From Aquabacter sp. L1I39 (GTDB lineage: Bacteria; Pseudomonadota; Alphaproteobacteria; Rhizobiales; Xanthobacteraceae), in the NCBI RefSeq assembly GCF_017742835.1, contig NZ_CP072392.1, positions 2,402,385 to 2,466,384 on the forward strand: DNA of 64,000 nucleotides, in the 5' to 3' direction. Position numbers and translations under genes: made by a program. Positions 4-16,583 of the stretch are shown here, piece after piece. Each line of letters opens with the position of its first letter. Within the stretch, counting starts at the first letter, position 1. The notes under the pieces are model-generated. The model ran no database searches and had not been told where the DNA came from. It saw only the letters and a program-made list of their open reading frames with translations.

Positions 4-798
4 TTATGTGTCGGGGACCTCAAGGGTGGTGTTGAACACCACCAGGTCGCCGCGATACTGGCCAATGCCGAGATAAAGCACGTGGCCGGCCTTGTCCGTG
101 ATGACACGCCGCACCTCGCCCACGGGTGCCCCCACGGGCAAGTCGAGCAGGCGGGCAACCGTGAGGTCCGCCGCCAGGATGCGGAAGGACTGGGTCATCT
201 TCTTCACCTTGGGCTGGCCAAGGCGACCGAGCACGGCGATGACCATGGCCTGGTCGAACGCCTCCGGTGCCAGCGCATAGCAGGCATTGTCGAGATAGAG
301 GTCGATTACGCAATAAGGCTGGTTTCCCACCCGGTGGACGCGGCGCATATAGCGATAGGAGGGGGCTGCTTCCCCCTCCTCCGGGCGCAGCGCGGGTAAG
401 GATACATCCGCCTCCACCGTCAGCGCCTGGGGCAGGTTGCCGTCCAGCATCTGAAGGAAATTGTCCCAGCTGGAATCCAGGTGAATGGTCTTGCGGGGTG
501 TCACCACGTCGGCGACGAAGGTGCCCTTCCCCTGCACCCGATCGATCAGCCCGTCATCCGCCAAAACGCCCAGCGCCTGGCGGACCGTGACGCGGGCCAT
601 GCCATACATTTCGGACAATTGTTCAAGGGTTGGCAATTGTGTGCCGGGCGGCCAGCGGCCCTCCTCGATCTCGGCGCGCAGCAGATTGGAGAGGGCCACA
701 TAGAGCGGCAGGGCAGACGTGCGCAGGCGCCGGCGCGCCTCCTCACCATCATGCACGTCCCCGTTCAGGCCCATCGCCGCGCTGTCCACCAGACCCAT
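4..798 (-). CDS. GntR-family (HutC/UTRA) transcriptional regulator
   Basis: This 264-residue protein has an N-terminal winged helix of the GntR type at about residues 30-97, including the RVTVRQALGVLADDGLI recognition region and the GKGTFV wing. A UTRA ligand-binding domain follows at about residues 110-255. HutC-type regulators bind a pathway metabolite in UTRA and usually repress an adjacent operon. The gene is divergent from the binding-protein gene at 1049, so the six-gene operon there is the likely target. The open frame extends upstream to about 1152, but ATG 798 is preceded by a GAAGCGGAG-like ribosome site and starts just before the HTH; the extra N-terminus looks non-coding. A second ATG at 774 is possible. 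Family confidence is high; ligand unknown. Confidence 0.9.
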   Translation of the reverse strand: MGLVDSAAMGLNGDVHDGEEARRRLRTSALPLYVALSNLLRAEIEEGRWPPGTQLPTLEQLSEMYGMARVTVRQALGVLADDGLIDRVQGKGTFVADVVTPRKTIHLDSSWDNFLQMLDGNLPQALTVEADVSLPALRPEEGEAAPSYRYMRRVHRVGNQPYCVIDLYLDNACYALAPEAFDQAMVIAVLGRLGQPKVKKMTQSFRILAADLTVARLLDLPVGAPVGEVRRVITDKAGHVLYLGIGQYRGDLVVFNTTLEVPDT

Positions 799-1048
799 CT
801 CCGCTTCACTCGATCTCGCCGCATGTGGAGCCGATCTGTCTAGTCCTTCCGGGGACGCAGACGAAGCCCATTTGCTGGGCGCATCTGCGCGCTGACGGCG
901 ACCGAAGAAAAGGCACCTTGCCCATGAATTAATCTTGTCTGCTGGTTGACCATACCATAGCATCTTTCCCAGACACAGAGGGAAGACGACCGCAACCGGC
1001 GCTCCCCCCGGCCGTCCCAGGCCGGGCCCAGCCAGAGGGATATGGTCC
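799..1048. promoter_or_regulatory. Divergent control region of the GntR gene and the sulfonate-type operon
   Basis: These 250 bases separate two divergent genes and hold no convincing gene. A TGGTTGACCA imperfect palindrome lies at 943-952 and is a weak candidate for the GntR operator or a -35 region. The sequence around 928-970 is less GC-rich than the rest, as expected of promoter DNA. No -10/-35 pair could be fixed. Confidence 0.4.
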
Positions 1049-2059
1049 ATGCAAAAATCACGACATTTGCGCCTTGCTGCCATCGCGGCGGCCGCCGTCT
1101 TCAGCTTCGCCGCGCCAGTGCGGGCGGAGATGAGCAATGTGCGCGTCGCCACCCAGATCGGCCTGCCCTACCTGCCGCTGATCGTCATGCAGAGCGACAA
1201 GCTGTGGGAAGAAGAGGCCAAGAAGCGTGGCGTCGACGTGACCGTCGAATATGCCCGCCTTGGCGGCGGCGGACCGCTCAATGATGCGCTGCTGTCCGAT
1301 TCCGTGCAGATCGCCTCGGCCGGCCTCGCCCCCATGCTGACCTTGTGGGACAAGACCTCGAAGAATTACGGGGTGAAGGGCCTCTCGGCCATCAACGCCT
1401 CGCCCATGTACCTGCTCACGAACAATCCGAACATCAAGTCCATCAAGGATTTCGGCCCCAACGACCGGATCGCCTTGCCGAGCATCAAGGTGTCCATCCA
1501 GGCCATCGTGCTGGCAATGGGCGTGGAGCAGGCGTTCGGGCCGGGCAAATCGGGGGAATTGGACAATATCCAGGTGGCCATGGCCCATCCGGAAGCCTAT
1601 GCGGCGCTCACCTCCAAGGCGGGCGGCATCACCGGCTATATGGCCTCCTCCCCGTTCCAGGAGCGGGCGCTGAAGGTGCCGGGCATCACCAAGGTGGCGG
1701 ATTCCTTCCAGATCCAGGGCGGCCCCGCCACCCTCTCCGTCATCTATGCCAAGTCGGACTTTGTGAAGAACAATCCCAAGCTCGTGGAAGCCTTCATGGC
1801 CGCCCAGCGGCGCGCGGTGGACCTCATCAAGACCGACCTGAAGGGCTCCATCGACAAATATTACGCCGTCACCGGCGACAAGACCGACCGGGCCATCGTC
1901 GAACAGATCCTGTCCTCCCCCGAATACGACTTTGACATCTACCCGAAGGAAAGCATGAAGATCGCTGACTTCATGTATCGCACCGGCGCGCTGAAGCAGA
2001 AGCCGACGTCCTGGAAGGACTATTTCTTCGAGACCGTGCATTCCGAAAAGGGCAACTGA
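1049..2059 (+). CDS. ABC transporter periplasmic substrate-binding protein, NitT/TauT (SsuA/TauA-like) type
   Basis: A Sec signal peptide runs to about residue 26 (cleavage near PVRA). The 336-residue precursor then has the NMT1/SsuA-like fold pattern, with VRVATQIGLPYLPLIVM near the mature N-terminus and a PAYALT-like hinge region. Proteins of this class capture taurine, alkanesulfonates, nitrate, aromatic sulfonates or thiamine precursors in the periplasm and pass them to a SsuBC-type transporter. The matching ATPase (4279) and permease (5082) lie downstream, separated by a phosphoesterase gene. It is the first gene of the operon divergent from the GntR regulator. The exact ligand cannot be read from sequence; the ComA-like enzyme at the end of the operon favours a sulfonate. 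Confidence 0.88.
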   Translation: MQKSRHLRLAAIAAAAVFSFAAPVRAEMSNVRVATQIGLPYLPLIVMQSDKLWEEEAKKRGVDVTVEYARLGGGGPLNDALLSDSVQIASAGLAPMLTLWDKTSKNYGVKGLSAINASPMYLLTNNPNIKSIKDFGPNDRIALPSIKVSIQAIVLAMGVEQAFGPGKSGELDNIQVAMAHPEAYAALTSKAGGITGYMASSPFQERALKVPGITKVADSFQIQGGPATLSVIYAKSDFVKNNPKLVEAFMAAQRRAVDLIKTDLKGSIDKYYAVTGDKTDRAIVEQILSSPEYDFDIYPKESMKIADFMYRTGALKQKPTSWKDYFFETVHSEKGN

Positions 2060-2195
2060 CCTTTCGGATCGCTCGACCGGCGCGGGCCGCCCGCCCGCGC
2101 CTCTTCACCTTGTCACGCTCCTCATCGCGGTGCCCTCGCCGCGGACGGCCCCTTGCGTCCGCCCGCAGCCCCGTCCCCAACCTGCCGAGTGACCG

Positions 2196-4265
2196 ATGCC
2201 GTCTCCCGAAACCCTGCTCTTCTCCTTCGCCCTCGTGGGCGATACCCATGTGAAGCCCGAGAGCGGCGACCAGTCCGCGCCCTGGAAGGTGAACGAGAAG
2301 GCCACCCGCCGCGCGCGCTTCATCGCCCGCGAGATCGCCCGCTACGAGCCCAAGTTCGTCATCCATCTGGGCGATCTGGTGCACCCGGTGCCCGAACTGC
2401 CCACCTTCGATGCGGCGGTGGCGCTGATGCAGGACGTGTTCCGTCAGCACCACAACCGCATGCATGTGCTGCCGGGCAATCACGACATCGGCGACAAGCC
2501 CAACCGCGCCATGCCGGCCAAGGGGGTGCGGGAAAGCTGGATCGACATCCATGAGAAGAATTTCGGCCCCGGCTGGCGGGCCTTCGACCAGGACGGCATC
2601 CGCTTCATCCTGCTCAACACGCCCATCCTGAATTCCGGCCTGCCACGCGAGGCGGAGCAGCGCGCATGGCTGGAAGGGGCGCTCGCAGAGGCCAAAGGCC
2701 GGCGCATCTTCGTCTTCCTCCACTATCCCCTGTTCCTGCTCGGGCCCAATGAGCCCAGCACCTATGACAATATAGACGAGCCCGCCCGCTCGGATCTTCT
2801 TTCCCTCTTCCGCGCCAATCAGGTGGAAGCGGTCTTCGCCGGCCACGTACACAACATCTTCTATCATCGGCTGGACGACACCGAATTCTACGTCATGCCC
2901 GCCACGTCCTTCGTGCGGCAGGACTATTCGGAAATGTTCCGCATCGAGGCGGCGGCCGAGAATGGCCGCGACGATGCCGAGAAGCTCGGCTTCGCCATGA
3001 TCGACGTCCATTCCGACGGCCATGTGGTGCACTATCTGCGCAGCTATGGCGCGGAGATCGCGGAAGCCGAGCAGCAGGCGCCCATCGCCGTGCGCTCCAC
3101 CGCCCCCCTGCCCCACCCCAAGAAAAGCGGCGGCGCGCCCATCGGCGTCTTCCTGCGCCACCCCTGGGCCGAGACCGTCACCCTGCCGCAGAACGGCCCC
3201 ATGGATGAGTTCGTGCGCAAGCAGGCACGCAACGATTATCCCATCGCCGCGCTCTGGCGCCTGGGCGTCAACCATGCCCGCGTGCCGCTGGACGATCTGA
3301 TGGACCCCGTCTCCCGCGCCCGCATGGCGGACCTCGTCGCCATCGGCCATCGCTTCACCGTCTCCGGCTTCGGCGTGCCCGCGGGCGCGGCCCGTGCCGC
3401 CCTCATCGAACATGCGGGGCTGGTGGACCGCTTCGAGTGCGTGCTGCCCTTTGAGGCGATCCTGCCTTCCGCCCCCGCGCTCTCTGCCTTCCGCTCCGAC
3501 TTCGCCCGGCCCGTGACGCTCGCCCGCGTCGCCACCTCGGCGGATGAGGCGAAGGTTGGGTCGAAGATCGAATTGTTCGTCTCCCACGGCTTCCGGCCGG
3601 ACCAGTTGCCGGAGATCGAGGAGCTTGTAGCGGGTGGCCTCACTGGCATTGACGGCGTGGTGGTGCGGGCGGGCCTTGGCGCCGATTTCGTCACCCTCGC
3701 CGCAATGCTGGACACCTGGTCGAAGGCCAACGGCCTGTCGGTGGACCTCAACCTTCGCGTGGCCGCCAACAACCCCGCCACCAATGTCACCGATGACGGT
3801 GCGATCCTGGCGGCGGCGGCGGAGGCCTATGCCTGCGCCCTCGCTTTTCCCGCCCTCACCGTCATGTTCGATCCCTTCATGGATCTGGACCGGGGCTATT
3901 TCGTGCGCCATGGCCTTGTGGACCGCCGCTGCAACCTGCGCCCCGCCGGCCTTGCGGTGGAAGCGCTGGCGGCTTTCCTGCCCTGCGATGGAGTCTCGTC
4001 TCCTGCCCTGACGGCGAGCACCCCAGCCGGCGGCCGTGTCCTGATGCTGGACAGCACGGGCATGGTCGCCGCCATCCTCCTGCCGTCACCGGGGACATCG
4101 CTGGAGATCCCGGCCGAGTTCGCCGTGCGCCTGCCGGAGGCCCTTCACATCGTGCCCCTCGACGCCCCCTGGACCCTCTCCCCCATCCTCGGCAGCCTCC
4201 CCACGGGGCGCTTGCCGGCGCGCGTGGACGGGCCGACCCTGCTGGTCGGTTCTCACGCCAAATAG
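2196..4265 (+). CDS. Calcineurin-like metallophosphoesterase with long C-terminal extension
   Basis: Residues 9-225 carry the complete metallophosphoesterase signature: GDTH with D16 and H18, HLGD with D60, GNHD with N95 and H96, H176 in FLHYP, and the GHVH motif at 216-219. These residues bind a dinuclear metal centre and hydrolyse phosphomono- or diesters. About 430 further residues follow. Part of this (roughly 330-640) alternates hydrophobic strands with acidic and basic loops in a way that could be a TIM-barrel-like domain, but I recognise no family. At 689 residues it is much longer than a simple phosphoesterase. There is no signal peptide, so it is cytoplasmic. It sits between the binding protein and ATPase of one operon, so its substrate is probably the imported compound or a phosphorylated derivative. 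Confidence 0.85.
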   Translation: MPSPETLLFSFALVGDTHVKPESGDQSAPWKVNEKATRRARFIAREIARYEPKFVIHLGDLVHPVPELPTFDAAVALMQDVFRQHHNRMHVLPGNHDIGDKPNRAMPAKGVRESWIDIHEKNFGPGWRAFDQDGIRFILLNTPILNSGLPREAEQRAWLEGALAEAKGRRIFVFLHYPLFLLGPNEPSTYDNIDEPARSDLLSLFRANQVEAVFAGHVHNIFYHRLDDTEFYVMPATSFVRQDYSEMFRIEAAAENGRDDAEKLGFAMIDVHSDGHVVHYLRSYGAEIAEAEQQAPIAVRSTAPLPHPKKSGGAPIGVFLRHPWAETVTLPQNGPMDEFVRKQARNDYPIAALWRLGVNHARVPLDDLMDPVSRARMADLVAIGHRFTVSGFGVPAGAARAALIEHAGLVDRFECVLPFEAILPSAPALSAFRSDFARPVTLARVATSADEAKVGSKIELFVSHGFRPDQLPEIEELVAGGLTGIDGVVVRAGLGADFVTLAAMLDTWSKANGLSVDLNLRVAANNPATNVTDDGAILAAAAEAYACALAFPALTVMFDPFMDLDRGYFVRHGLVDRRCNLRPAGLAVEALAAFLPCDGVSSPALTASTPAGGRVLMLDSTGMVAAILLPSPGTSLEIPAEFAVRLPEALHIVPLDAPWTLSPILGSLPTGRLPARVDGPTLLVGSHAK

Positions 4266-4278
4266 GGATAAGCGCCCC

Positions 4279-5082
4279 ATGAGCCTTGCCCCCGCCCGCG
4301 ACCCCGCACAGCCGGTCCTGACCGCTGACGATGTGTCGCTCCAATATCGCACCCGCGATCATCTGGTGACCGCCACCTGGCGGGTCTCCTTCAAGGTCCA
4401 TCCCGGCGACCGCTTCGTGCTGCTCGGCCCGTCGGGATGCGGCAAGTCCTCGCTGTTGAAATCGGTGGCCGGCTTCCTGCCGCCGGTGGAAGGGCGCATC
4501 CGCCTCAATGGGCGGGAGATCAAGGGCCCCGGCCCCGACCGCATGATGGTGTTCCAGGAGTTCGACCAGCTGCTGCCCTGGAAAAGCGTGTTCGAGAACG
4601 TGGCCTATCCGCTCAAATGCACCGGCCGCTTTCCCGCCGCCGACATAGAGCGCCGGGTGCGCGGCTATCTGGACAAGATCGGCCTCACGCGCTTTGCCGA
4701 TGCCCATCCCCACATGCTCTCCGGCGGCATGAAGCAGCGCGTGGCCATCGCCCGGGCCATGGCCATGGAGCCCGACGTTCTGCTCATGGACGAGCCGTTC
4801 GCGGCGCTCGATGCCCTTACCCGCCGCACCATGCAGGCGGAATTGCTTCGCCTGTGGGACGAGACGCGATTCACTCTCCTGTTCGTCACCCATTCCATTG
4901 AGGAGGCCCTGATCGTGGGCACCCGCATCCTCGTCCTCTCCCCCCATCCCGGACAGGTACGCGCCGAGCTGGACGCCACTGGCCTTGGCTTCGAGGAGAT
5001 GGGCTCGCCCCGCTTCGTGGCCCTGCAGAACCGGATCGAAGCCATGCTGTTCGGCCATGCCGCTGCTGAGGAGGCCCACTGA
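4279..5082 (+). CDS. ABC transporter ATP-binding protein, NitT/TauT (SsuB/TauB-like) type
   Basis: This 267-residue ATPase has Walker A GPSGCGKSS at 50-58, signature LSGGMKQR at 147-154, Walker B LLMDEP at 168-173 and the H-loop in FVTHS. The VFQEFDQLLPWKSV Q-loop is typical of nitrate/sulfonate/taurine ATPases. It energises import with the permease that follows; the permease ATG overlaps this stop by one base (TGATG). The binding protein is at 1049. The spacing of 13 bases after the phosphoesterase supports one transcript. Confidence 0.93.
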   Translation: MSLAPARDPAQPVLTADDVSLQYRTRDHLVTATWRVSFKVHPGDRFVLLGPSGCGKSSLLKSVAGFLPPVEGRIRLNGREIKGPGPDRMMVFQEFDQLLPWKSVFENVAYPLKCTGRFPAADIERRVRGYLDKIGLTRFADAHPHMLSGGMKQRVAIARAMAMEPDVLLMDEPFAALDALTRRTMQAELLRLWDETRFTLLFVTHSIEEALIVGTRILVLSPHPGQVRAELDATGLGFEEMGSPRFVALQNRIEAMLFGHAAAEEAH

Positions 5083-5969
5083 TGAGCGAGGTCCTTCCCC
5101 TGCGCGGCGATCCGCCCGCCCGGCCCGAATATGAGCGCACGCCGGAGACGCTGGGCACCATCGGTGAGATCCAGCGCCAGCTCACATTGGCGGAGCGGCT
5201 GGGACAGAACGCCTTCTTCCGGCGCCTCCTGCTCCTGGTTGCGCTGGGCGCCGCCTGGCAGATCTATGCGGTCATGCTCAACAACGAGCTGATGTTCCCC
5301 ACCTTCAGCGCCACGGTTGCCGCGCTGTGGGATGCACTGGTGCACGGCACGCTCCTGGAGCGCACGCTCTATTCGCTGAAAGTGCTGGTGATTGGCTATG
5401 TGATCGGCGTCGGCCTCGCCGGCCTGCTGGTGTCGCTCTCCGCCTCCACGCGGTTCGGCAACGACCTGCTCTCCACGCTCACCGCCATGTTCAACCCGTT
5501 GCCGGCCATCGCGCTTCTGCCGTTGGCGCTGTTGTGGTTCGGGCTCGGCATGCCCTCCATCGTCTTCGTCATCGTGCATTCGGTGCTGTGGGCGGTGGCG
5601 CTCAACACCCATTCCGGTTTCCAGTCGGTGAGCGAAACCATGCGCATGGCCGGCCAGACCTTCGGCCTGAAGGGGCTGCGCTACATTTTCGGCATCCTCA
5701 TCCCGGCGGCGCTGCCCTCCATCGTGTCGGGCCTCAAGATCGGCTGGGCCTTTGCCTGGCGCACGCTGATCGCCGCCGAACTGGTGTTCGGCGCCTCCTC
5801 CCGCTCGGGCGGCCTTGGCTGGTTCATCTTCGAGAACCGCAACTCGCTTGAGACACCTTACGTATTTGCCGGCCTGCTCATGGTGATCCTGATCGGTCTC
5901 GCCATCGAGGGGCTCGTCTTCCGCACGCTGGAAATCCACACCGTGCGCAAATGGGGAATGCAGAGATGA
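5082..5969 (+). CDS. ABC transporter permease, NitT/TauT (SsuC/TauC-like) type
   Basis: The 295-residue protein has a polar N-terminus of about 45 residues, then about six transmembrane segments. The cytoplasmic EAA-type coupling loop is visible as GQTFGLKGLRYIFGILIPAA near residues 190-215, where the ATPase docks. Permeases of this class act as homodimers in the inner membrane. The start overlaps the ATPase stop and its own stop overlaps the next ATG by four bases, so translational coupling is likely. Confidence 0.92.
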   Translation: MSEVLPLRGDPPARPEYERTPETLGTIGEIQRQLTLAERLGQNAFFRRLLLLVALGAAWQIYAVMLNNELMFPTFSATVAALWDALVHGTLLERTLYSLKVLVIGYVIGVGLAGLLVSLSASTRFGNDLLSTLTAMFNPLPAIALLPLALLWFGLGMPSIVFVIVHSVLWAVALNTHSGFQSVSETMRMAGQTFGLKGLRYIFGILIPAALPSIVSGLKIGWAFAWRTLIAAELVFGASSRSGGLGWFIFENRNSLETPYVFAGLLMVILIGLAIEGLVFRTLEIHTVRKWGMQR

Positions 5970-8284
5970 TCCTCTCCAACCCGTCGGACACCGGCACAGC
6001 CCCGGTCCGCGCCCGCCCCAATTGGGTGCCCGAGCCGCCCTCCATCGCCCCCGAGCGGGCCGGCCGCGTGACGCTCTCCCCCGCCGGCCCCTTCCCGGCC
6101 GGCTCCTATCAGCACATCACGCTCACCTATACCGCCGGCCATTACGGCATCGACGATACGGGCACGCTGCGCGTGTGCTTCCGCTTCGCCACCGACCAGG
6201 GCCAGCCGCAATTTACCGATCCGGCGGGCGCCAATTACGTCTCCATCAGCGCCAGCAATGGCGCGGTGCTGGATGCGCGCTTCGACTACAAGCTGAATGT
6301 GCGCCCCTTCGACCGGACACTCGTGATCCGGGTGGTGAAGGGATATCTGAAGGAAGGCGACACCATCACGGTAAGCTTCGGCGATCCGGCCGGCGGCTCG
6401 CCCGGCTTCCGCCTCCAGACCTTCGCGGACCCCTTCCACGAGTTCCAGGTGCTGGTGGACCCCATCGCCTGCGGCCATTATGTGCGCGTGCCCGACCAGC
6501 CCACCTTCGCCATCGTGGCGGGGCCGGTGGAAACCTACGCCCTCGTGCTGCCCACCCGCGTCGCGCCGGGCGCGCCCTTCGCGCTGGGCATCCGGGCCGA
6601 GGACCGCTGGGGCAATCCGGCGGATCTCTCCGGCCGCCGCCTCCTGCTGGAGGCGGACGGTGCGGTGGAGGGCCTGCCGGCTGACATCGGCCTCGCGCAG
6701 GCGACCCCCTCTTTGCGCGTCGAGCCCCTCACCGCCGGTGAAGGCGTGGTGCGCATTCGCCTGAAGGACGAGGCGGGCGCGGTGCTCGCCACCTCCAACC
6801 CCGCCGTGGTGGCGCCCGCAGACGGCCTCCTGCGCCTGTGGGCGGACCTCCACGCCCAGAGCGGGGAAACCATCGGCTCCTCCTCCGCGCACGATTACAT
6901 GTGCTTTGCCCGCGACGTGGCCTTCCTGGACGCGGTGGGCCACCAGGGCAACGACTTCCAGATCACGCTGGACTTCTGGGCCGAGCTGAACCGGCTGATG
7001 GGCACCTTCAACGCGCCCGGCCGCTTCATCACCGTTCCCGGCTATGAATGGTCCGGCAATACGGGCCTCGGCGGGGACCGTAACGTCTTCTTCCCTCGCG
7101 AGGACGGCACCATCCGCCGCTCCTCCCACGCGCTGGTGCCGGACCGCTCGGATGAGACCACCGACGCCATCGACGCCCGGGCTTTGTTCCGCGACCTCGG
7201 CGCCTCGGGCGATGACCCGGTCTGCTGGGCCCATTGCGGCGGGCGCTATGCGGACATCCATTACGCGCACGACGTGCGGATCGAGCGCGCGGTGGAGGTG
7301 CATTCCTCCTGGGGGACGTTCGAATGGCTGCTGGCGGATGCCTTCGAGCGCGGCTATCGGGTGGGTGTGGTCTGCAATTCCGACGGCCATAAGGGCCGCC
7401 CCGGTGCCGAGGCCCCCGGCGCCTCCATGTTCGGCGCATTGGGGGGCCTCACCTGCTTCCTCGCGCCGCGCTTCGACCGGCCGGCCCTGTTCGAGGCCAT
7501 GAAGGCCCGCCATCATTACGGCACCACCGGATCGCGGCTTGATCTCGACATGCGCATCCAGTTGCCGGAGGGCAGCCTTGTCTATGGCGACGACCCGTCC
7601 TTGCCCGAAGCCGAGGGCGAGCCGGCGACCAGCGCCCTCATGGGCGACATCGTCGCCACCCGGGCGGGTACCGCGCGCCTCAGTCTGCGCCTGGAAGCCC
7701 CGAGCCCGCTCGTCGCCCTGGAAATCCGGGACGGCACGCAGGTGATCGAGACCATCCGGCCCTATGGCGATGCCAAAGGCGGCCGGCGGATCGTGGTGAT
7801 CTGGTCGGGCGCCGAATATCGCGGCCGCTTCCGCCAGAGCGTGTGGGACGGTGCCCTGGAGGTTTCGGGCAACATGATCGTCTCCGCCAAGCCCATCAAT
7901 TTCTACAACCCCGACAAGCCGTTGAAGATCGAAGGCCACAGCGTCGCCTGGCAGTCGGTGACCACGGGCAATTTCGCCGGCGTCGAGCTGGAGCTGGCCG
8001 ATGCCGAGTCCGGCCGGCTCACCGTCACCACGCCCAACGGCACGCTGGACCTGGCGATCGCGGACATTGCCGCCGAGCCCACCACGATGGATTGCGGCAA
8101 GCTGGAGCGCGCCCTCGCCGTCTATCGCCTGCCGGATGAAAATCCCCATCTGTCGCTGGTGCTGGAGCGCGACATTGCCCTCGAAGCCGGCACGGAGCGG
8201 CGCATCCTGGTGGCCGCCACGTTCGAGGACGGGCATCGGGCCTGGTCGAGCCCCATCTATCTCATTCCGGAGACGGAGCGGTGA
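5966..8284 (+). CDS. PHP-like metal-dependent hydrolase, DUF3604 family
   Basis: The 772-residue protein has a beta-rich N-terminal part of about 280 residues, then a PHP-like metal-binding segment. Visible elements are ADLHAQSGE near 293-301, VGHQGND near 325-331, WAHCGGRY near 420-428 and NSDGHKGR near 469-477, a spacing of His/Asp typical of DUF3604. PHP folds bind two or three metals and usually cleave phosphate esters; DUF3604 members are mostly uncharacterised. I chose ATG 5966, which overlaps the permease stop as ATGA and follows a GGGGAA ribosome site, rather than ATG 5951. There is no signal peptide. It is the operon's second putative metal hydrolase. Substrate unknown. Confidence 0.75.
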   Translation: MILSNPSDTGTAPVRARPNWVPEPPSIAPERAGRVTLSPAGPFPAGSYQHITLTYTAGHYGIDDTGTLRVCFRFATDQGQPQFTDPAGANYVSISASNGAVLDARFDYKLNVRPFDRTLVIRVVKGYLKEGDTITVSFGDPAGGSPGFRLQTFADPFHEFQVLVDPIACGHYVRVPDQPTFAIVAGPVETYALVLPTRVAPGAPFALGIRAEDRWGNPADLSGRRLLLEADGAVEGLPADIGLAQATPSLRVEPLTAGEGVVRIRLKDEAGAVLATSNPAVVAPADGLLRLWADLHAQSGETIGSSSAHDYMCFARDVAFLDAVGHQGNDFQITLDFWAELNRLMGTFNAPGRFITVPGYEWSGNTGLGGDRNVFFPREDGTIRRSSHALVPDRSDETTDAIDARALFRDLGASGDDPVCWAHCGGRYADIHYAHDVRIERAVEVHSSWGTFEWLLADAFERGYRVGVVCNSDGHKGRPGAEAPGASMFGALGGLTCFLAPRFDRPALFEAMKARHHYGTTGSRLDLDMRIQLPEGSLVYGDDPSLPEAEGEPATSALMGDIVATRAGTARLSLRLEAPSPLVALEIRDGTQVIETIRPYGDAKGGRRIVVIWSGAEYRGRFRQSVWDGALEVSGNMIVSAKPINFYNPDKPLKIEGHSVAWQSVTTGNFAGVELELADAESGRLTVTTPNGTLDLAIADIAAEPTTMDCGKLERALAVYRLPDENPHLSLVLERDIALEAGTERRILVAATFEDGHRAWSSPIYLIPETER

Positions 8285-9078
8285 GCGCGCCCTTCGCCTT
8301 CGTCCCCCTCGCCCCCGGCCGGAGCCTTGAAAAGCCCCGGCGCACGGGGCTGACCATGATGATCGACCAGGGACTCGGCCTTGGCGCGGTGCGCGACATC
8401 CTGGCGACGTCCGGGGCTTATATGGACCTCGCCAAGATCAAGACCGGCACCGCCCGGCTCTATGGCGAGGCTGTCCTTAAGGAAAAGCTCGCCACCTACA
8501 GGGACGCCGGCGTGCGCCCCTTCATCGGCGGCCAGTTCCACGAATATGTCTTCGCCACCCTGGGCGCGGACGCGCTGCCCGGCTTCTATGCGGAAGCCTT
8601 GCGGCTGGGCTTTGCCACCATCGAAATCTCCGACAATGTGGTCCCCCTCACCGATGCCGAGCGGGCCGGCCAGATCCGTGCGGCGCGGGCGGCGGGGCTG
8701 TCCGTCTTCGCGGAAGTGGGCGCCAAGGATCGCCGCACCACGGCGGCCGAGATGGTGAGCCAGGCCCAGATCTGCCTCGCCGAGGGCGCCGAGCTGGTGC
8801 TGGTGGAGGCGGCCGAGCTGGTGGTGGACGGCGTCGCCGACGAGGACATGCTGGCCGCCCTCCATGCGGGCATCGATCCAGCAAAGCTGATGTTCGAATT
8901 GCCCGGCCCCTGGATTGCCGGCGTGCGCGCCTGCGACATCGAGAGCCTGAAGAAGCTGCTGGTGCGCAGCTTCGGGCCGGATGTGAATGTGGCCAACGTG
9001 CCGCCGGACACGGTGCTGGATTTCGAGGCCACCCGCACCGGCCTCGGCGTCGCCGGCCCGCCCAGCTTCTGGCACTAA
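8281..9078 (+). CDS. Phosphosulfolactate synthase (ComA)-family protein
   Basis: The 265-residue protein opens with KPRRTGLTMMIDQGLGL and continues with GAYMDLAKIKTGT, GGQFHEYV, FATIEISDN and EVGAKD, the arrangement of the ComA family (PF02679). ComA is a TIM-barrel enzyme that adds sulfite to phosphoenolpyruvate to give (2R)-phospho-3-sulfolactate, the first step of coenzyme M synthesis in methanogens. Bacterial homologues outside coenzyme M makers are poorly understood. Here the gene has a GTG start overlapping the DUF3604 stop (GTGA) and closes an operon with a sulfonate-type importer, so a catabolic or C-S bond-cleaving role is a reasonable inference. One position usually basic in the EVGKK segment reads Ala (EVGAKD). 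No other coenzyme M gene is nearby. Confidence 0.8.
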   Translation: MSAPFAFVPLAPGRSLEKPRRTGLTMMIDQGLGLGAVRDILATSGAYMDLAKIKTGTARLYGEAVLKEKLATYRDAGVRPFIGGQFHEYVFATLGADALPGFYAEALRLGFATIEISDNVVPLTDAERAGQIRAARAAGLSVFAEVGAKDRRTTAAEMVSQAQICLAEGAELVLVEAAELVVDGVADEDMLAALHAGIDPAKLMFELPGPWIAGVRACDIESLKKLLVRSFGPDVNVANVPPDTVLDFEATRTGLGVAGPPSFWH

Positions 9079-9099: not shown

Positions 9100-10158
9100 T
9101 CAGCCGCCCTTTCGCCGCACGCTCTTGGGCGGCATGCCGAAGGCCCGGCGGAAGGCGGTGGCGAAATTGGCGGAGGAATTGTAGCCCGCCAGAAAGGCTG
9201 CCTGCGCCACGGTGAGGCCGTCCTCCTCCAGGGCATGGCGGGCGCGCTCCAGCTTCCGACGGCGCACATATTCGAACACGGTCATGCCGAAGACCGAGCG
9301 GAACAGGCGCTGAAGCGAATTGGCGCTCATGCCGGCGGCGCGCGCCACATCCTCAAGGGTGAGGTCGCCATCGAGCCGTGACTCCAGGAAGTCGTGCACC
9401 TCCCACATGCGGCGCTGGTCGCGGGGCAGCACGGTGCCCTCGGCCGGCCGCGTCTCAACCGCCGCGATCTCGGCCAGCGCCTCTGCGGCCATGTCCAGCG
9501 CACGGCTTTCCAACTGCAGGGCATGAAGCAGGGGCCCGTGGACTGTGGGGCGCAGCACCTGCTCGGCCAGCGACACCAGCCGCGCGGAGGGGCGGAAGCG
9601 GACATGGGCCAGGTGATCGCGGCTGAACGTGCGCACCTTCTTCTGGCCCCCCAACCCGTCGAGGCCATCCCCCTCCACCCAATCCAGCGGCAGGGAGACA
9701 TTCACCTTGCGGACACGGGTGCCGCGCCGGCCCTGGCGGCGGAAGAGATGCGGCTCGGCCCGTGCAATCACCGCCCCTTCGAGGGTTCCTCCCGTAGCCC
9801 CCGGCCCCAGCAGGAAGCGTCGGCCGCCCAGTTCCACGTCGGCCATGCCGTCGAGAAACAGGGAGATGGTCAGACCCTCCTTATGCTCGAGCTGGGTGGT
9901 CAGATCGTGCATGTCGAAGGCGTCGGTGGAATGGAGGGTCAGGCCGGATCGCAGCCGCAGCATCTGATAGCGGCCCCGCAAGGCCGCCGCTCCCTCATCG
10001 CACAGGTCCGGTGCGAGGACGGCAAAGCGCGTACCGCACAAGGCAGATGCGCGGGCAATGTCGCCCTGGCTGACGAAAGGCATACGCGGCCGCGCTGGCC
10101 CCTCGCCCGTCTCGCCACGCCGGGAAGCCGGATTTGCCTCGTCTCGCCCATGGGTCAT
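9100..10158 (-). CDS. AraC-family transcriptional regulator, PchR-like
   Basis: The C-terminal third carries two helix-turn-helix motifs of the AraC/XylS family (LTLEDVARAAGMSANSLQRL and LTVAQAAFLAGYNSSANF), ending in GMPPKSVRRKGG. The N-terminal region has the GLTISLFLDGMADVELGG pattern seen in PchR-type siderophore-sensing activators. Such regulators bind an internalised ferri-siderophore and activate the receptor operon. It is divergent from the TonB receptor at 10429. The start is uncertain: GTG 10209, ATG 10158 and ATG 10083 are all in frame and none has a strong ribosome site. It is convergent with the ComA-like gene, with about 20 bases between stops. Confidence 0.88.
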   Translation of the reverse strand: MTHGRDEANPASRRGETGEGPARPRMPFVSQGDIARASALCGTRFAVLAPDLCDEGAAALRGRYQMLRLRSGLTLHSTDAFDMHDLTTQLEHKEGLTISLFLDGMADVELGGRRFLLGPGATGGTLEGAVIARAEPHLFRRQGRRGTRVRKVNVSLPLDWVEGDGLDGLGGQKKVRTFSRDHLAHVRFRPSARLVSLAEQVLRPTVHGPLLHALQLESRALDMAAEALAEIAAVETRPAEGTVLPRDQRRMWEVHDFLESRLDGDLTLEDVARAAGMSANSLQRLFRSVFGMTVFEYVRRRKLERARHALEEDGLTVAQAAFLAGYNSSANFATAFRRAFGMPPKSVRRKGG

Positions 10159-10213
10159 GGGATGAGAGAGCGTCACTGCGGTGCGCTTGTCAATATAACG
10201 CGCACGCACTCAA

Positions 10214-10230
10214 ATTAGTATTATTCCAAA
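10214..10230. promoter_or_regulatory. Candidate iron-responsive (Irr-type) operator
   Basis: The sequence ATTAGTA-TTA-TTCCAAA agrees at 11 of 14 defined positions with the rhizobial Irr-type motif as I remember it (TTTAGAA-N3-TTCTAAA). It lies in the AT-rich divergent region between the AraC regulator and the TonB receptor, where iron control is expected. This is a by-eye match and needs a scored motif search. Confidence 0.3.
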
Positions 10231-10428
10231 TAAGCCACCCCACAGCTTGCAGCAACAGATGGAAACCGTATGATCGGCTCTGTTGATGTGTCTGTTCTAA
10301 TGAAATTGCGATTTCTCAAACGTAATATACGATAGCGCAAACGGATTCATTCTGGTGGTGGCGCAAGTGCCTCCCGTAAAAACGAGTCCAGTCCCCACAG
10401 CCGGGGAAAACGGATTCGGACCATTGCC

Positions 10429-12687
10429 ATGACCCCTTTCATGCTCCCCCGCGATGTCTTCTGCGCGCGCCTCGCCTTCGCGCCGAAAGCGCGCCGCGCT
10501 CTGCTCCTGGCGGGAACCATGTCGGTGGCCACGCTCACGCCTTTGGCAGCGGTCCGGGCGCAGGAGGCAAACGCGCAGGCCGGTGCCATCGCACTCGACA
10601 CCATCTCGGTTCAGGCGGAGACCCAATCGGTGCTCACCGAGGGCAAGGACACCTATACGGCGGCGATGACCAGCACCGGCGTCGGCGCCCCGACCCTTTG
10701 GAAGGACATTCCCCAGTCGGTGAGCACGGTGACCAGCCAGCGCATCGCCGACCAGAACTTCACCCAGCTGGAAGAGGCCATGCAGCGGACCACCGGCATG
10801 GTGATCCTTCAGAACGATGTTGGCCGCTCCTCCATCTTCTCGCGCGGCTACGAGATCGACCAGATGCTGGTGAACGGCCTCTCCGCCCCGCTCTCCAGCA
10901 TCTATGGCACGCAGCCCGACCTTGCCATCTTCGACCGGCTCGACGTGCTGAAGGGCCCCGCCGGCCTGTTCTATGGCGGCACCGGCGCGGGCGGCAATTC
11001 CGGCCCCTCCGGCATCATCAACGGCATCCTGAAGCCGGCCACCGCCAACTATTTCATCAACGGGGAAGTGACGGGCGGGTCTTGGGACTATGGCCGGGCG
11101 CAGGTGGATGCAGGCGGCAAGCTGAATGAGGCGGGAACGGTGCGCGGGCGCGTGGTGGCCGCCTATCAGAATGCCGACAGCTTCGTCGACTATAACGAGA
11201 ACAAGGTCTGGGTCGGCTACGGCACGCTCTCCTTTGACCTGACGGAGAACACCACCCTCTCGCTCTATGCCTGGCACCAGGAGCGGGACATGCTGCCCTT
11301 CAACGGCCTGCCCGCCATCAATGCGGGGGGCGGCGTCGGCCAATTGCTGAACGTGCCGCGCAGCACCTTCGTGGGCGCCTATTGGAACACGTTCCACAAC
11401 GACACCACCGACTATGTGGCCGAGCTGACGCACGCGTTCGACAATGGCGGCGAGGCCAAGGCCTCGGTGCGCTATTCGGACCGCTACGTGGATTATCGCT
11501 ACGCCTATGGTGGCAGCGCAGTCTCCACGGCCGCCAAGACCTACGGCAATTTCTCCATGCAATACACGGCGGCGAAATACTGGGAGACGTCGCTCTCCGC
11601 CGACACCCATGTGACCATGCCGTTCCAGGCCTTGGGCCAGACCCAGCAGATCACCGCGGGCCTTGCCTTTCAGAGCGTGGACACCAACCTGCTGGCACCC
11701 ACCTCCACCTCCCTGTCGGGCACCTACAACATCTACGCCTTCAATCCCTATGCGGTGCCCAACCCCACTACCCTCTACAATCGCCAGACGCTGACAGACC
11801 CCACCCAGTACGGCGTCTATGGCCAGGCCAATCTGAAGCCGCTGGAGCAGGTGACGGTGCTGCTCGGCGGGCGCTTCGCCTGGTATGACAACACCTCGAC
11901 CGTCACCACGGTGAACACCTCCACCGGAGGCATCACGACCACGAACGCGCCCATCAATATCGATGCGGAGTTTGTGCCCTATGCCGGCCTCGTGGTGGAG
12001 CTGACCAAGAACATCTCCGCCTATGTGAGCTACACCGACACCTTCACCCCCCAATTCGAGGTGGATGCCAGCGGCAACGCGCTGCCGCCGCGCCAGGGCT
12101 TTCAGTATGAGGGGGGCCTGAAGGGCTCCTTCTTTGACGGCGCGCTCAATGCCTCCGCCGCCATGTTCCTGATCCGTGACAATAATCGCGCCCTGGCCAC
12201 CTCCACCGCGAACGTCTATGTGGCCGCCGGCGAGACGCAGGTGTCCGGCTATGAGCTGGAGGTCAGCGGCCGCCTCGCGCCGGGCTGGGAGGTCTATGCC
12301 GGCTATACCTACACCGAGACCGAATATCTCACCGCCACCGCCGCCCAATTGGCCAGCGGCTTCAGCACCTATACGCCGCGCAACAATTTCAACCTGTGGA
12401 CCAAGTACGAATTCCAGGATCCCAGGCTCAAGGGCCTGAGCGTCGGCGCGGGCGTCAAGCATTTGTCGAGTTTCTACACCACGTCCGGAGGCGTGACATT
12501 GACCGCGCCGGCCTACACCACCGTGGACGCGCAGATCGGCTACAAGTTCAACGAGCACTTCCAGGCGACGCTGACCGCCACCAACATCTTCGACGAGGTC
12601 TATTATACCCGCGTGGGCTCCACCTCGCTCTTCAACTTCTACGGCGAGCCCCGCGCCTATTGGCTGAAGGTGAGCGCGACCTATTGA
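10429..12687 (+). CDS. TonB-dependent siderophore receptor
   Basis: The 752-residue precursor has a signal peptide ending near residue 44 (VRAQ). A TonB-box-like stretch follows, then a plug domain with PQSVSTVTSQRIADQNFTQLEEAM and a VLKGPAGLFYGG element, then a long 22-strand barrel with alternating aromatic residues. The protein ends in an aromatic residue (SATY), as outer-membrane barrels do. The form matches siderophore receptors of the FhuE/FepA class (TIGR01783-like). It imports a ferric siderophore into the periplasm using TonB energy. The next genes encode an esterase and a full inner-membrane importer, so this is the locus's outer gate. Ligand not predictable by eye. Confidence 0.95.
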   Translation: MTPFMLPRDVFCARLAFAPKARRALLLAGTMSVATLTPLAAVRAQEANAQAGAIALDTISVQAETQSVLTEGKDTYTAAMTSTGVGAPTLWKDIPQSVSTVTSQRIADQNFTQLEEAMQRTTGMVILQNDVGRSSIFSRGYEIDQMLVNGLSAPLSSIYGTQPDLAIFDRLDVLKGPAGLFYGGTGAGGNSGPSGIINGILKPATANYFINGEVTGGSWDYGRAQVDAGGKLNEAGTVRGRVVAAYQNADSFVDYNENKVWVGYGTLSFDLTENTTLSLYAWHQERDMLPFNGLPAINAGGGVGQLLNVPRSTFVGAYWNTFHNDTTDYVAELTHAFDNGGEAKASVRYSDRYVDYRYAYGGSAVSTAAKTYGNFSMQYTAAKYWETSLSADTHVTMPFQALGQTQQITAGLAFQSVDTNLLAPTSTSLSGTYNIYAFNPYAVPNPTTLYNRQTLTDPTQYGVYGQANLKPLEQVTVLLGGRFAWYDNTSTVTTVNTSTGGITTTNAPINIDAEFVPYAGLVVELTKNISAYVSYTDTFTPQFEVDASGNALPPRQGFQYEGGLKGSFFDGALNASAAMFLIRDNNRALATSTANVYVAAGETQVSGYELEVSGRLAPGWEVYAGYTYTETEYLTATAAQLASGFSTYTPRNNFNLWTKYEFQDPRLKGLSVGAGVKHLSSFYTTSGGVTLTAPAYTTVDAQIGYKFNEHFQATLTATNIFDEVYYTRVGSTSLFNFYGEPRAYWLKVSATY

Positions 12688-13565
12688 GCCAGAGCCTCAC
12701 CACAGCCCCCCGCGTGGGGGCCACACGACCCCCCGATGTGCGCGACCTCGCCTTGGGTGGCGCGGTCGAGCCCTGCCACCTGCCGCGCACCTTGCGCTGG
12801 CGGCAGGAGCGGGGCGGCCGCATGCTGCGCTTCGACCTGGCCTGGCCGGAGCGCATGAATGAGGAGGGGCATCCCCTCGTGGTCGTCACCGATGCCAATG
12901 CCATGTTCGCCACCCTGGTCGAAACGACACGGCTACAGTGCGTAAGACCGGACCCGCCGGACGTGCGCGAGCCCGTTGTGCTGGGCATTGGCCATGACAC
13001 GGACGCCCTGTTCGACCCCGCAGCGCGCGCCATCGACTATGCCTCGCCCGGCGTTGCTTTGGTGCTGGATGTCCTCGCCGAGTTGATGGCCGCCCTCGCC
13101 GCCCGCCTGCCGCTTTCGCCGACGCGGCGCACCCTCATCGGCCATTCCCTGGGTGGCCTGTTCACGCTCACTACTCTGTTCGAGCGGCCCGAACTGTTCG
13201 CGCGCTATGTGGCCGCCTCACCCTCCCTCTGGTGGGCACCGGCGGCGGTGGAGATCGGCGCGGCGGGATTACCGGCGCGCCTCGGGCCCCTCCCGAGCCG
13301 GCATCTCCTCCTCGCCGCCGGTGGCCTTGAGCGGGGATGGCCCCGTCCGGAGGATGCTGCGCGCCTGACGCCCGAGCGCCGCGCCATCCTGGCAGAGCGG
13401 CAGGTGGTGGAGGCGGCGCAGACCCTTGCTGAACGCCTCGCCGCCGAGAACCCAGACCATCTGTCTGTGCATTTTCATCTGTTCGAGGGGGAAGGCCACG
13501 CCTCCATGGTGCCGCGGGCGCTGTCCCGCGCGGTGCCGTTTGCCCTCGCGGAGGCCCCGGTATGA
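12684..13565 (+). CDS. Siderophore esterase (IroE/Fes-like alpha/beta hydrolase)
   Basis: The protein carries the nucleophile motif GHSLGG near residue 154, an ASPSLWW segment and a C-terminal GEGHASM with the catalytic His, all characteristic of the esterase-D/IroE group (PF00756). These enzymes hydrolyse tri-lactone catechol siderophores so that iron can be released. I set the start at TTG 12684, which overlaps the receptor stop (TTGA) and follows GAAGGTGAG; GTG 12714 and GTG 12738 are alternatives, giving about 275-293 residues. No obvious signal peptide, so likely cytoplasmic. Its presence suggests the imported siderophore contains ester bonds. Confidence 0.8.
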   Translation: MSQSLTTAPRVGATRPPDVRDLALGGAVEPCHLPRTLRWRQERGGRMLRFDLAWPERMNEEGHPLVVVTDANAMFATLVETTRLQCVRPDPPDVREPVVLGIGHDTDALFDPAARAIDYASPGVALVLDVLAELMAALAARLPLSPTRRTLIGHSLGGLFTLTTLFERPELFARYVAASPSLWWAPAAVEIGAAGLPARLGPLPSRHLLLAAGGLERGWPRPEDAARLTPERRAILAERQVVEAAQTLAERLAAENPDHLSVHFHLFEGEGHASMVPRALSRAVPFALAEAPV

Positions 13566-14680
13566 CCCGCTTGCCGCATCTCATCCTCTTCTCCGCCCTC
13601 ACCCTTCTGGCGCTCCTTGCCCCCGAAGGCGCGCGGGCGACCCCCGTGACGCTGACCGACATTGTCGGCCGGCAGGTGACCTTGCCCGCGCCGGCGCGGC
13701 GCATCGTGCTGGCCGAGGGACGGCAGATCGTGGCGCTGGCCCTCATCAGCCCCGATCCCGTGAGCCTCGTCGCCGGCTGGTCGGCGGACCTGCGTCGGCG
13801 GGACCCCTCCACCTATCGCTTGGTGCGCGCCAAGTTTCCGAAGGCGGACGACATCGCGATCGTCGGCGAGGGTTCGGACGAGAGCTTCTCGGTGGAGAAG
13901 ACCCTGGCGCTCGGCCCGGACCTGGTGGTGCTGAGCGGCCGGCTCGGAGCCGGGCGGCCCGCCGAGATGGTCCGACAGTTCGAGGCCGCCGGCGTGCCGG
14001 TGATCTTCGTCGACTTCTTCGCGCATCCCTTCGAGAACACCGTGCCCAGCCTGAAAATCCTGGGACAGGCGCTGGGCCGGGAAGAGGCAGCGCAGGCCTA
14101 TGCCGACTTCTACGCGGGACGGATGAAGCGCATCTCCGATCGGCTCGCGCGGCCCGGCCTTGTGCATCCGAAGGTGCTCATGGAGACCCATGCCGGCGGA
14201 TCGGGCGAGTGCTGCAACAGTCCGGGACGCGGCAGCATCGGTGATTTCATCACTTTTGCCGGCGGTGCCAATATCGCGGCCGACGTGATTGCCGGCACCC
14301 ATGGCCGCCTCAGCCTCGAATATGTGCTGCAGCAGGACCCATCCGTCTATGTGGCCACCGGAGGGCCGCACCTGAAGGGCACCGGCGGCCTCGTCCTCGG
14401 CCCCGGCTTCACGGCTGAAGAGGCCCGCGCGAGCCTCGCGGCCATCCTGACGCGACCGGGTATTGCCGAACTCCAGGCGGTGAAGACGGGGAATGTCCAC
14501 GGCCTCTTCCACAATCTGGTGAACCTGCCGCTCAATGTCCTGGTGGCAGAGGCGCTGGCGAAGTGGATCCATCCCGACCTGTTCCCCGACCTCGACCCCA
14601 ATGCCACGCTCGCCGAAATCAATGCCCGTTTCCTCGCCGTGCCGTTCACCGGCACCTATTGGGTTGACCTGAAGCCATGA
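13562..14680 (+). CDS. Iron-siderophore ABC transporter substrate-binding protein (FecB/FepB-like)
   Basis: A signal peptide ends near residue 26 (GARA). The mature protein begins with TPVTLTDIVGRQVTLPAPARRIV, the standard opening of the class III periplasmic binding proteins for siderophores, haem and cobalamin. It has two lobes linked by a long helix (FEAAGVPVIFVDFFAHPFEN region). It overlaps the esterase stop (ATGA) and is followed by its permease with a four-base overlap. The 372-residue length is slightly above average. It carries the ferri-siderophore from the outer-membrane receptor to the permease. Confidence 0.92.
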   Translation: MTRLPHLILFSALTLLALLAPEGARATPVTLTDIVGRQVTLPAPARRIVLAEGRQIVALALISPDPVSLVAGWSADLRRRDPSTYRLVRAKFPKADDIAIVGEGSDESFSVEKTLALGPDLVVLSGRLGAGRPAEMVRQFEAAGVPVIFVDFFAHPFENTVPSLKILGQALGREEAAQAYADFYAGRMKRISDRLARPGLVHPKVLMETHAGGSGECCNSPGRGSIGDFITFAGGANIAADVIAGTHGRLSLEYVLQQDPSVYVATGGPHLKGTGGLVLGPGFTAEEARASLAAILTRPGIAELQAVKTGNVHGLFHNLVNLPLNVLVAEALAKWIHPDLFPDLDPNATLAEINARFLAVPFTGTYWVDLKP

Positions 14681-15753: not shown

Positions 15754-16583
15754 GTGGACCGGCTCTGCGTCTTTCGGGCGCGAATGCCGGCTATGGCCGG
15801 CGGCCCGTCATCCGTGATCTCTCCCTCGCGCCCCTTGAAGCCGGCACGCTGACAGCCCTCGTGGGGCCGAACGCGGCGGGCAAGTCGACGCTTCTCAAGG
15901 CGCTGGCGGGTCTGCTGCCCATGAAGGGATCCCTGCAACTCGGACCGCTCGACCTGACCGCTCTGCCGCGCGAAGAGCGGGCCGCTCATCTCGGCTTCAT
16001 GCCACAGGCGCTGCCGCCCGGCGTCGCCCTCACCGTGATCGAGACCGTCATCGGCGCATTGCGCGCCGCGCCGCTGCGCGCCCCGCTTGACGGCAAGGCC
16101 GCGCGGGCGCGCGCTGTCGGCATGCTGGACCGGCTCGGCATCACGCCTCTGGCCCTGGAGCCGCTGGACCGGCTCTCCGGAGGCCAGCGCCAGTTGGCGA
16201 GCCTCGCACAGGCCGTGGTGCGCGAACCCCGCGTGCTGCTGCTGGACGAACCCACCAGCGCCCTCGACCTGCGCCATCAGGCCGTGGTGATGGGCTTCCT
16301 GAAGCAGCTGGCGGAAGAAGGACGGGTGGTGGTGGCGGTGCTCCATGACCTGACCCTGGCGGCCCGTTATGCCGATCAGGTGGTGGTGCTCCAGCAGGGC
16401 GCCCTGGCCGCGCAGGGCACTCCGGCCGAGGCCATCACGTCTGACGTTCTGGCGCGTGTCTATGGGGTGAGCGGCCGGGTGGAGGCCTGTTCTCGGGGCA
16501 CGGTTCAAGTGGTGGTGGATGGCCCGCTCGCGGAAGAGGCCACTTCAGATACGGCAGGGAGGATTGGCCATGGAGGCCGCTGA
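15750..16583 (+). CDS. FhuC/FecE-type siderophore ABC ATP-binding protein
   Basis: Walker A is GPNAAGKST at 39-47, the signature is LSGGQRQLASLAQA, and Walker B is LLLDEPTSALD, with H-loop VLHDLTLAARY. The 277-residue protein energises the FecCD permease. The start ATG 15750 overlaps the permease stop; open sequence upstream is only antisense-style frame inside the permease gene. The C-terminal 30 residues are not conserved in the family. Confidence 0.94.
   Translation: MSGPALRLSGANAGYGRRPVIRDLSLAPLEAGTLTALVGPNAAGKSTLLKALAGLLPMKGSLQLGPLDLTALPREERAAHLGFMPQALPPGVALTVIETVIGALRAAPLRAPLDGKAARARAVGMLDRLGITPLALEPLDRLSGGQRQLASLAQAVVREPRVLLLDEPTSALDLRHQAVVMGFLKQLAEEGRVVVAVLHDLTLAARYADQVVVLQQGALAAQGTPAEAITSDVLARVYGVSGRVEACSRGTVQVVVDGPLAEEATSDTAGRIGHGGR

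Follow-up and report, generated by a model that had tools for sequence, protein, structure and literature searches.

Layout and Conservation of the Operon

The genome of Aquabacter sp. L1I39 consists of one contig of 5.39 Mb, from which a stretch of 64 kb, hereafter the window, was analyzed. Open reading frames and Pfam matches delineate a GntR gene on its minus strand that diverges from six tightly packed genes on the plus strand, which encode, in this order, an SsuA-like substrate-binding protein (SBP), a metallophosphoesterase (MPE), an ABC ATPase, an ABC permease, a DUF3604 protein and a homologue of ComA (PF02679):

4..789, minus strand: GntR/UTRA-family regulator, divergent from the operon (Pfam GntR and UTRA on the open reading frame 4-1152)
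935..960, strand not assigned: putative GntR operator, core TGGTTGACCA at 943-952
1049..2059, plus strand: periplasmic substrate-binding protein, NMT1/SsuA-like (Pfam NMT1_2, 31.2 bits, cut-off 24.7)
2196..4265, plus strand: calcineurin-like metallophosphoesterase (Pfam Metallophos, 55.6 bits, cut-off 21.5, residues 10-219)
4279..5082, plus strand: ABC ATPase, taurine/nitrate type (Pfam ABC_tran, 114.7 bits, cut-off 25)
5082..5969, plus strand: ABC permease, SsuC/TauC type (Pfam BPD_transp_1, 63 bits, cut-off 26.4)
about 5966..8284, plus strand: DUF3604 protein, putative PHP/CehA-like metallohydrolase (Pfam DUF3604, 37.7 bits)
8281..9078, plus strand: non-canonical ComA-superfamily (PF02679) enzyme (Pfam ComA, 184.9 bits, cut-off 25.2)

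The regulator matches Pfam GntR with 63.3 bits (cut-off 27) and UTRA with 38.4 bits (cut-off 23.8), its start at 789 being the call of a simple in-house gene caller. All families named for the operon lie above the curated Pfam cut-offs. The NCBIfam models for SsuA, SsuC, CehA/McbA and archaeal ComA were each matched below their cut-offs, and for this reason we regard the SBP, the permease, the DUF3604 protein and the ComA-like protein as relatives rather than established members of these families. An initial sequence-only reading had described this gene set as overlapping or closely spaced within 799..9078: All of the genes are indeed present, and the range holds the six plus-strand genes, while the GntR gene lies outside it. 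The ATPase and permease genes overlap by 1 base and the permease and DUF3604 genes by 4 bases; the DUF3604 and ComA-like genes overlap by 4 bases here and in two related genomes (L016, L017) and by 1 base in a third (L018).

These three genomes, Aquabacter sp. P-9, A. spiritensis and Xanthobacter tagetidis (loci L016-L018), contain the entire set in the same gene order at 59-100% identity, so the six genes are kept together elsewhere, as the sequence-only reading required. Purifying selection acts on each of the six plus-strand genes, as judged from dN/dS values of 0.008-0.34 across the three genome comparisons (0.065-0.27 for the ComA-like gene). Moreover, the palindrome TGGTTRACCA lies between the GntR and SBP genes in six of six operon loci, and in one of them (L146) it extends to a perfect 24 bp. 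At the corresponding position of the window stands TGGTTNACCA, its sole occurrence in the 64 kb. Each operon locus has one copy, and the 1.90 Mb of retrieved loci, with short repeat retrievals of a place not counted, contain one further site, in L064; L157, the SuyAB-like locus of the Aquabacter sp. L1I39 genome, has none. We infer that GntR binds the TGCTGGTTGACCATACCA site as its putative operator. Synteny, low dN/dS and the common operator-like palindrome together argue that the gene set did not arise by chance.

The composition of the operon nevertheless varies: GntR and the first five genes also occur without ComA alongside in the genomes G138 (L142) and G947 (L146). For G138 this absence is genome-wide, as a PF02679 profile search of 198 genomes of the family matched 13, G138 not among them; for G947 it refers to the operon locus L146 only. 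Because the same operon exists without ComA in both, its core is an import-plus-hydrolysis operon of five genes plus GntR, to which ComA was added.

Importer, Hydrolases and the ComA-Like Protein

The ABC genes are of the same subtype as the SsuABC and TauABC sulfonate importers, from which they differ in several respects. The best NCBIfam match of the SBP is SsuA_fam with 65.7 bits (cut-off 163.5), accompanied by weak PDB matches to TauA and SsuA; the permease reaches 85.6 with the SsuC model PRK11365 (cut-off 347), and the best NCBIfam matches of the ATPase likewise fall under cut-off. The curated SsuA and SsuC models that would together identify an SsuABC importer are thus both missed, the operon contains no SsuD/SsuE, and permease relatives at 57-64% identity are also found in non-sulfonate contexts. 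The permease family is broad: Among six annotated plasmid contexts, chosen from 30 of 850 permease-relative records, one holds a sulfite dehydrogenase and an alkanesulfonate binding protein and one an SDH/fumarase set, while two are of carboxylate type and two are uninformative. The notion that the ABC genes by themselves prove a sulfonate is weakened by these mixed contexts, to which L073 and L076 add.

The MPE combines its Pfam match with the dimetal motif residues D60, N95, H96, H176, H217 and H219 of calcineurin-like metallophosphoesterases, all of which are, together with H18, invariant in 38 aligned sequences. Its C-terminal region of about 400 residues has no Pfam match in the window protein, and in hmmscan the 38 sequences matched only the two phosphoesterase families, apart from a DUF7439 match in a single sequence. 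The DUF3604 protein belongs to PF12228 (cut-off 20.4 bits), and its residues D294, H296, D322, H326, E361, H423, E444, H446, D473 and H475 are invariant in 28 aligned sequences; all of them except D322 may form a PHP-like set of metal ligands. This possible His/Asp/Glu set and a weak match to NF038032 liken it to the CehA/McbA carbamate-type metallohydrolases; in contrast to these, it stays far under the model's cut-off (22.1 vs 80 bits, the match spanning residues 453-604 as numbered from the longest open reading frame), and a PDB sequence search retrieved no relative up to an E-value of 1. In the literature, the only mention of DUF3604 among the matches listed is a table on a Chlamydia transposon. 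Inspection by eye indicates an N-terminal signal peptide in the SBP and no evident one in the MPE and the DUF3604 protein.

The ComA-like protein is the single PF02679 match of the Aquabacter sp. L1I39 genome. It clearly belongs to this domain family and does not reach the archaeal ComA equivalog model TIGR03849 (155.2 bits, cut-off 280). At least 120 homologues exist, with 59-95% identity among the matches listed; some of them agree with MPE homologues in the length of their longest contig (for example ComA P0012 and MPE P0151, both 16459 bases), as would be expected of linked genes. The nearest relatives by this protein are Aquabacter and Xanthobacter of the family Xanthobacteraceae. In a tree of 50 sequences, the canonical clade, which comprises M. 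jannaschii, B. subtilis, plasmid XcbB-type copies and ComB-linked genes (nine canonical sequences), is split from the rest with a support of 96/93, and the window protein falls outside it; one long-branch sequence, L012, falls inside. The window protein and seven close relatives (the window group) are joined with a support of only 80/70 within a broader branch supported by 99/97, deeper placements being unsure owing to several long branches.

An alignment with M. jannaschii ComA reveals both retention and loss. K43, E79, E103, E133, K137, E168 and E205 are kept in the window group, including Lys137, which is catalytic in M. jannaschii ComA and corresponds to Lys149 of the window protein. However, five of the positions common to at least eight of the nine canonical sequences are changed in all eight members: G107N, D157C and R170A (9/9 in canonical sequences) as well as K209P and Q211L (8/9). 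In addition, the window protein carries an 11-residue insert after the FEAP/FELP motif. Compared with the ComA/XcbB phosphosulfolactate synthases (1qwg, 1u83, Xanthobacter plasmid copies), the protein thus shares the PF02679 family and the acid and lysine residues, and differs in its separate clade, the five exchanges and the insert. These features suggest to us a related enolate reaction with a different substrate.

The sequence-only reading had pointed out that no other coenzyme M gene is present, and we arrive at the same view: Synthesis of coenzyme M by the ComA-like gene was discarded on the grounds of a single, non-canonical PF02679 match with no ComB in the operon or beside the gene. 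The accompanying proposal of phosphosulfolactate or PEP chemistry finds no support in a protein outside the canonical clade that has lost residues including R170, and we consider coenzyme M or phosphosulfolactate chemistry unlikely.

Gene Neighborhoods of the Operon Families

We surveyed the neighborhoods of ComA genes for the DUF3604 genes with which the sequence-only reading had linked them, whereby genes in unannotated loci were predicted with the in-house gene caller and named after their best BLAST hit in a small reference collection. Among the fetched loci, excluding the window, a DUF3604 gene lies within 10 kb of 9 of 31 ComA-family genes. These are all seven window-group loci (L016-L021, L046), a Chelativorans plasmid (8.8 kb) and a haloarchaeal Natrinema plasmid (7.6 kb). 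For the other 22, including the canonical L045, L053, L055 and L059, no DUF3604 gene was found within 10 kb, some of these loci being short. The two genes are near each other in further arrangements in L020, L021, L046, L042 and L071, and since the arrangements vary between overlapping, divergent and interrupted, a functional link between ComA and DUF3604 is suggested. At the level of genomes, 17 of 385 in the class have a ComA-family match and 32 have DUF3604; with the Aquabacter sp. L1I39 genome excluded, DUF3604 occurs in 9 of 16 ComA-positive and 22 of 368 ComA-negative genomes (Fisher p 3.5e-7, kinship ignored and three of the nine double-positives from one genus). Only in one of these nine (G471) do both families lie within 10 kb of each other in the fetched stretches, and beside gene linkage this co-occurrence is weak support for the tie.

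Sulfur-related genes recur next to relatives of DUF3604 and of the ABC genes. In 7 of 38 loci, TauE and DUF3604 are at most 10 kb apart, whereas the overall density of TauE (222 matches in 137 Mb) would predict 1.07 such loci; six of the seven proteins behind the TauE profile stem from these same loci. The seven loci are distributed over four genera (L111, L113, L132; L112, L114; L069; L071), and as L113 and L132 belong to one genome, they amount to four or five separate cases (Poisson probability 1e-4 for seven cases, 0.005 for five). TauE directly adjoins DUF3604 in two genera, in at least 5 of the 32 genomes with DUF3604. L112 and L114 unite a window-type ATPase (70-71%) and permease (60-66%) with fumarase-like, SDH-like, TauE and DUF3604 genes. 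A Methylobacterium plasmid encodes a 42% SBP relative together with SDH-like, fumarase-like, TauE and SuyA/SuyB/SlcC/ComC-like genes, the best NCBIfam model of its ComC-like protein being L-sulfolactate dehydrogenase (160 bits, cut-off 500). In G138, ATPase, permease, binding protein, SDH-like, fumarase-like and SuyAB/SlcC/ComC-like genes form one run (L158), and in L164 a window-type ATPase/permease pair adjoins SuyAB-like genes. A stretch of about 14 kb on the Natrinema plasmid contains ComA, TauE, DUF3604 and, by annotation, a putative sulfate exporter; the two LLM oxidoreductases of this cluster are not taken as evidence for SsuD, as their best matches are F420-type models.

Of 14 chosen genomes, 9 have a SuyB-like match of 67-88% identity, assigned by gene arrangement rather than by a curated model. 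The SuyB-like protein of Aquabacter sp. L1I39 is 88% identical to that of M. radiotolerans and has SuyA-, ComC-, SlcC- and GntR-like neighbors; the match drops to 38% in A. spiritensis, a carrier of the full operon, and to 34% in G947. PMC12421959 reports SlcC/ComC/SuyAB and, apart from these, fumarate/tartrate-annotated proteins that are clustered with a TauE homologue and rise on sulfofucose. A set matching this sulfolactate pathway adjoins window-type ABC genes in relatives and is also present elsewhere in the Aquabacter sp. L1I39 genome, where it differs from the window operon in lying outside it and in lacking its palindrome. PMC11489063 further mentions a thesis on the degradation of 3-sulfopropionate via sulfoacrylate and sulfolactate.

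An organosulfonate substrate, as originally proposed, is plausible because some DUF3604 and ABC relatives adjoin TauE, SDH-like/fumarase-like, SuyAB/SlcC/ComC-like or sulfite-dehydrogenase genes. No sulfur gene was recognized in or directly beside the window operon, and TauE was not found in the fetched flanks of the seven window-group ComA loci, three of which (L019, L020, L046) run into a contig end on one side. TauE as a partner of ComA itself is a weakened candidate, as it is near ComA in 3 of 31 loci (0.86 expected), two of them from one genus. The low SuyB-like match of A. spiritensis and the mixed contexts of the six sampled permease relatives likewise speak against a sulfur reading.

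A Candidate Uptake-and-Degradation Pathway and Its Rivals

Taken together, sequence comparisons indicate that the locus is a real, conserved, regulated-looking import-and-hydrolysis operon, to which one lineage has added a non-canonical enzyme of the ComA family. Our main reading, to which we assign a probability of roughly 0.45, is a substrate-induced uptake-and-degradation operon for a small anionic conjugate that is finished by the ComA-like enzyme. The substrate or a metabolite would release GntR, and the SsuA-like protein and the ABC pair would import the conjugate, whereupon the MPE and the DUF3604 metallohydrolase would hydrolyze its ester, amide or phosphodiester linkages inside the cytoplasm. 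This sequence of import followed by hydrolysis had already been envisaged and fits the gene set. The product would be a short carboxylic acid and may well be a C3/C4 sulfonate; the ComA-like enzyme of Aquabacter and Xanthobacter may then make or break a bond at the β-carbon of the freed acid via a metal-held enolate, with Lys149 as a possible acid/base by analogy with M. jannaschii Lys137. Elimination of sulfite, water or another group would be favored over sulfonation of PEP, given that the canonical Arg170 is replaced by alanine. Where ComA is lacking, other enzymes might take the freed acid; in G138, the cluster of SDH-like, fumarase-like, SuyAB/SlcC/ComC-like genes is a candidate. In a narrower version that we consider doubtful, the ComA fold would work in reverse in the DUF3604-linked clade, as a desulfonating C-S lyase that splits sulfite off a hydrolyzed C3/C4 sulfonate, for example 3-sulfopropionate, sulfolactate or sulfosuccinate; if true, this would open a way of desulfonation that needs neither SuyAB nor Xsc nor SsuD, fed by a dedicated ABC/MPE/DUF3604 import operon.

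The imported acid might also be free of sulfur, an explanation that we regard as quite possible: A di- or tricarboxylic ester or amide would be imported and hydrolyzed, the ComA-like enzyme would act as a hydratase or as a C-C, C-N or C-O lyase, and the resemblance to SsuABC would reflect family ancestry only. Such catabolism would accord with the neighbors of ComA-family genes within six genes, where best matches to the small reference set identify MmgE/PrpD in 5 of 31 loci, Bug proteins of tripartite transporters in 8, TcuA in 3 and PrpF in 2, as well as with permease relatives that adjoin RraA/hydroxyacid dehydrogenase (L165) and PrpD/aminotransferase (L169) genes and with the loss of the canonical R170, D157 and K209. 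It is at odds with the recurrence of TauE, SuyAB-like and sulfite-dehydrogenase genes by DUF3604 or ABC relatives and with the Natrinema plasmid arrangement; TauE is also near two ComA loci of the MmgE/PrpD-TcuA-PrpF type (L054, L056). On balance, the observations modestly favor a sulfonate over a sulfur-free acid, and sulfonate chemistry for the operon is plausible but circumstantial.

That the core import-and-hydrolysis operon functions alone, with the ComA-like gene as a downstream hitch-hiker, would explain the ComA-free cores of L142 and L146; we deem this improbable in view of the overlap of the ComA-like and DUF3604 genes in four genomes, their renewed proximity in five further loci and the low dN/dS of the ComA-like gene. 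Sulfolactate is made in Bacillus spores, and a biosynthetic operon, in which the ComA-like enzyme makes phosphosulfolactate and the MPE or the DUF3604 protein replaces ComB to yield sulfolactate, could invoke the strong PF02679 match, the conservation of Lys137 and six other acid or lysine positions and the two possible phosphatases. We nonetheless judge it very improbable: The protein lies outside the canonical clade with alanine for R170 in 8/8 sequences, an importer is unexpected for biosynthesis, and the same hydrolase operon is found in G138, a genome without any PF02679 match. This last observation also led us to reject the MPE as a substitute for ComB, and the occurrence of the operon without ComA in G138 and G947 shows that the two hydrolases are not tied to the ComA step they had been thought to serve.

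Returning to uptake and degradation, the operon probably represents an undescribed breakdown route rather than a synthesis of coenzyme M; in agreement with the earlier impression of an undescribed gene set, our searches of an open-licence library showed no description of it. All 17 plasmid PF02679 matches are labeled "phosphosulfolactate synthase" in public records, which looks wrong for the well-populated PF02679 branch of the window type as judged from its residues and neighbors. As this non-canonical branch sits in catabolic-looking operons, ComA annotations should not be equated with coenzyme M or sulfolactate synthesis unless residues and neighbors have been checked. With one operator, one importer and three enzymes, the operon offers a compact, testable system for the roles of DUF3604, MPE and ComA-like proteins, and if the ComA-like enzyme releases sulfite, it would be a new kind of enzyme in the sulfonate cycle.

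Conserved metallophosphoesterase motifs and the genes next to the operon

In the window protein, no Pfam family matches the C-terminal half of the metallophosphoesterase (window 3096-4262), yet this half carries strong motif conservation around residues 559-580, where D559, D563, D565, R566, G567, Y568, R571, D576 and R577 are invariant in all 38 aligned sequences. The operon is adjoined by the following block:

9100-16000, genes for an AraC regulator, a TonB receptor and uptake of the ferric-siderophore type

Since this block is kept in Aquabacter sp. P-9 (L016) and was not seen in the syntenic loci of A. spiritensis (L017) or Xanthobacter tagetidis (L018), we ruled it out as a member of the operon system.

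Other contexts of ComA-family genes

Non-canonical ComA genes at eight further loci (L044, L054, L056, L057, L060, L062, L063, L064) have MmgE/PrpD or TcuA-type neighbours and are additional ComA branches: some are accompanied by one to three MmgE/PrpD paralogues, and alternative neighbours are TcuA-type FAD enzymes, PrpF and, as judged by eye, isopropylmalate-dehydrogenase-like proteins. An Arthrobacter plasmid (L043:7440-16115) combines in one run SsuABC-type genes, a CocE hydrolase, a ComA-like gene, thioredoxin reductase, thioredoxin, an uncharacterised protein and a UGSC-family (seleno)protein. On a Legionella lytica plasmid (L045:5868-9496), the annotated phosphosulfolactate synthase gene measures 2.9 kb, its ComA match lies in the last third, and it is overlapped by a 3' neighbour annotated as 2-phosphosulfolactate phosphatase.

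Possible sulfite export and candidate genes for sulfonate degradation

At four loci (L111-L114) a TauE-family gene directly adjoins DUF3604 with a gap of 20-53 bases between the called genes, which suggests export of either sulfite or the DUF3604 product. In each of two clusters, binding-protein or ABC genes are found together with genes resembling SDH (SdhABCD), class I fumarase and SuyAB/SlcC/ComC:

L158:1988-13955, in G138, a genome with the operon lacking ComA
L147:577-16496, on a Methylobacterium radiotolerans plasmid

Both contain candidate genes for the conversion of 3-sulfopropionate via sulfoacrylate and sulfolactate to pyruvate and sulfite, a route from thesis work cited in PMC11489063.
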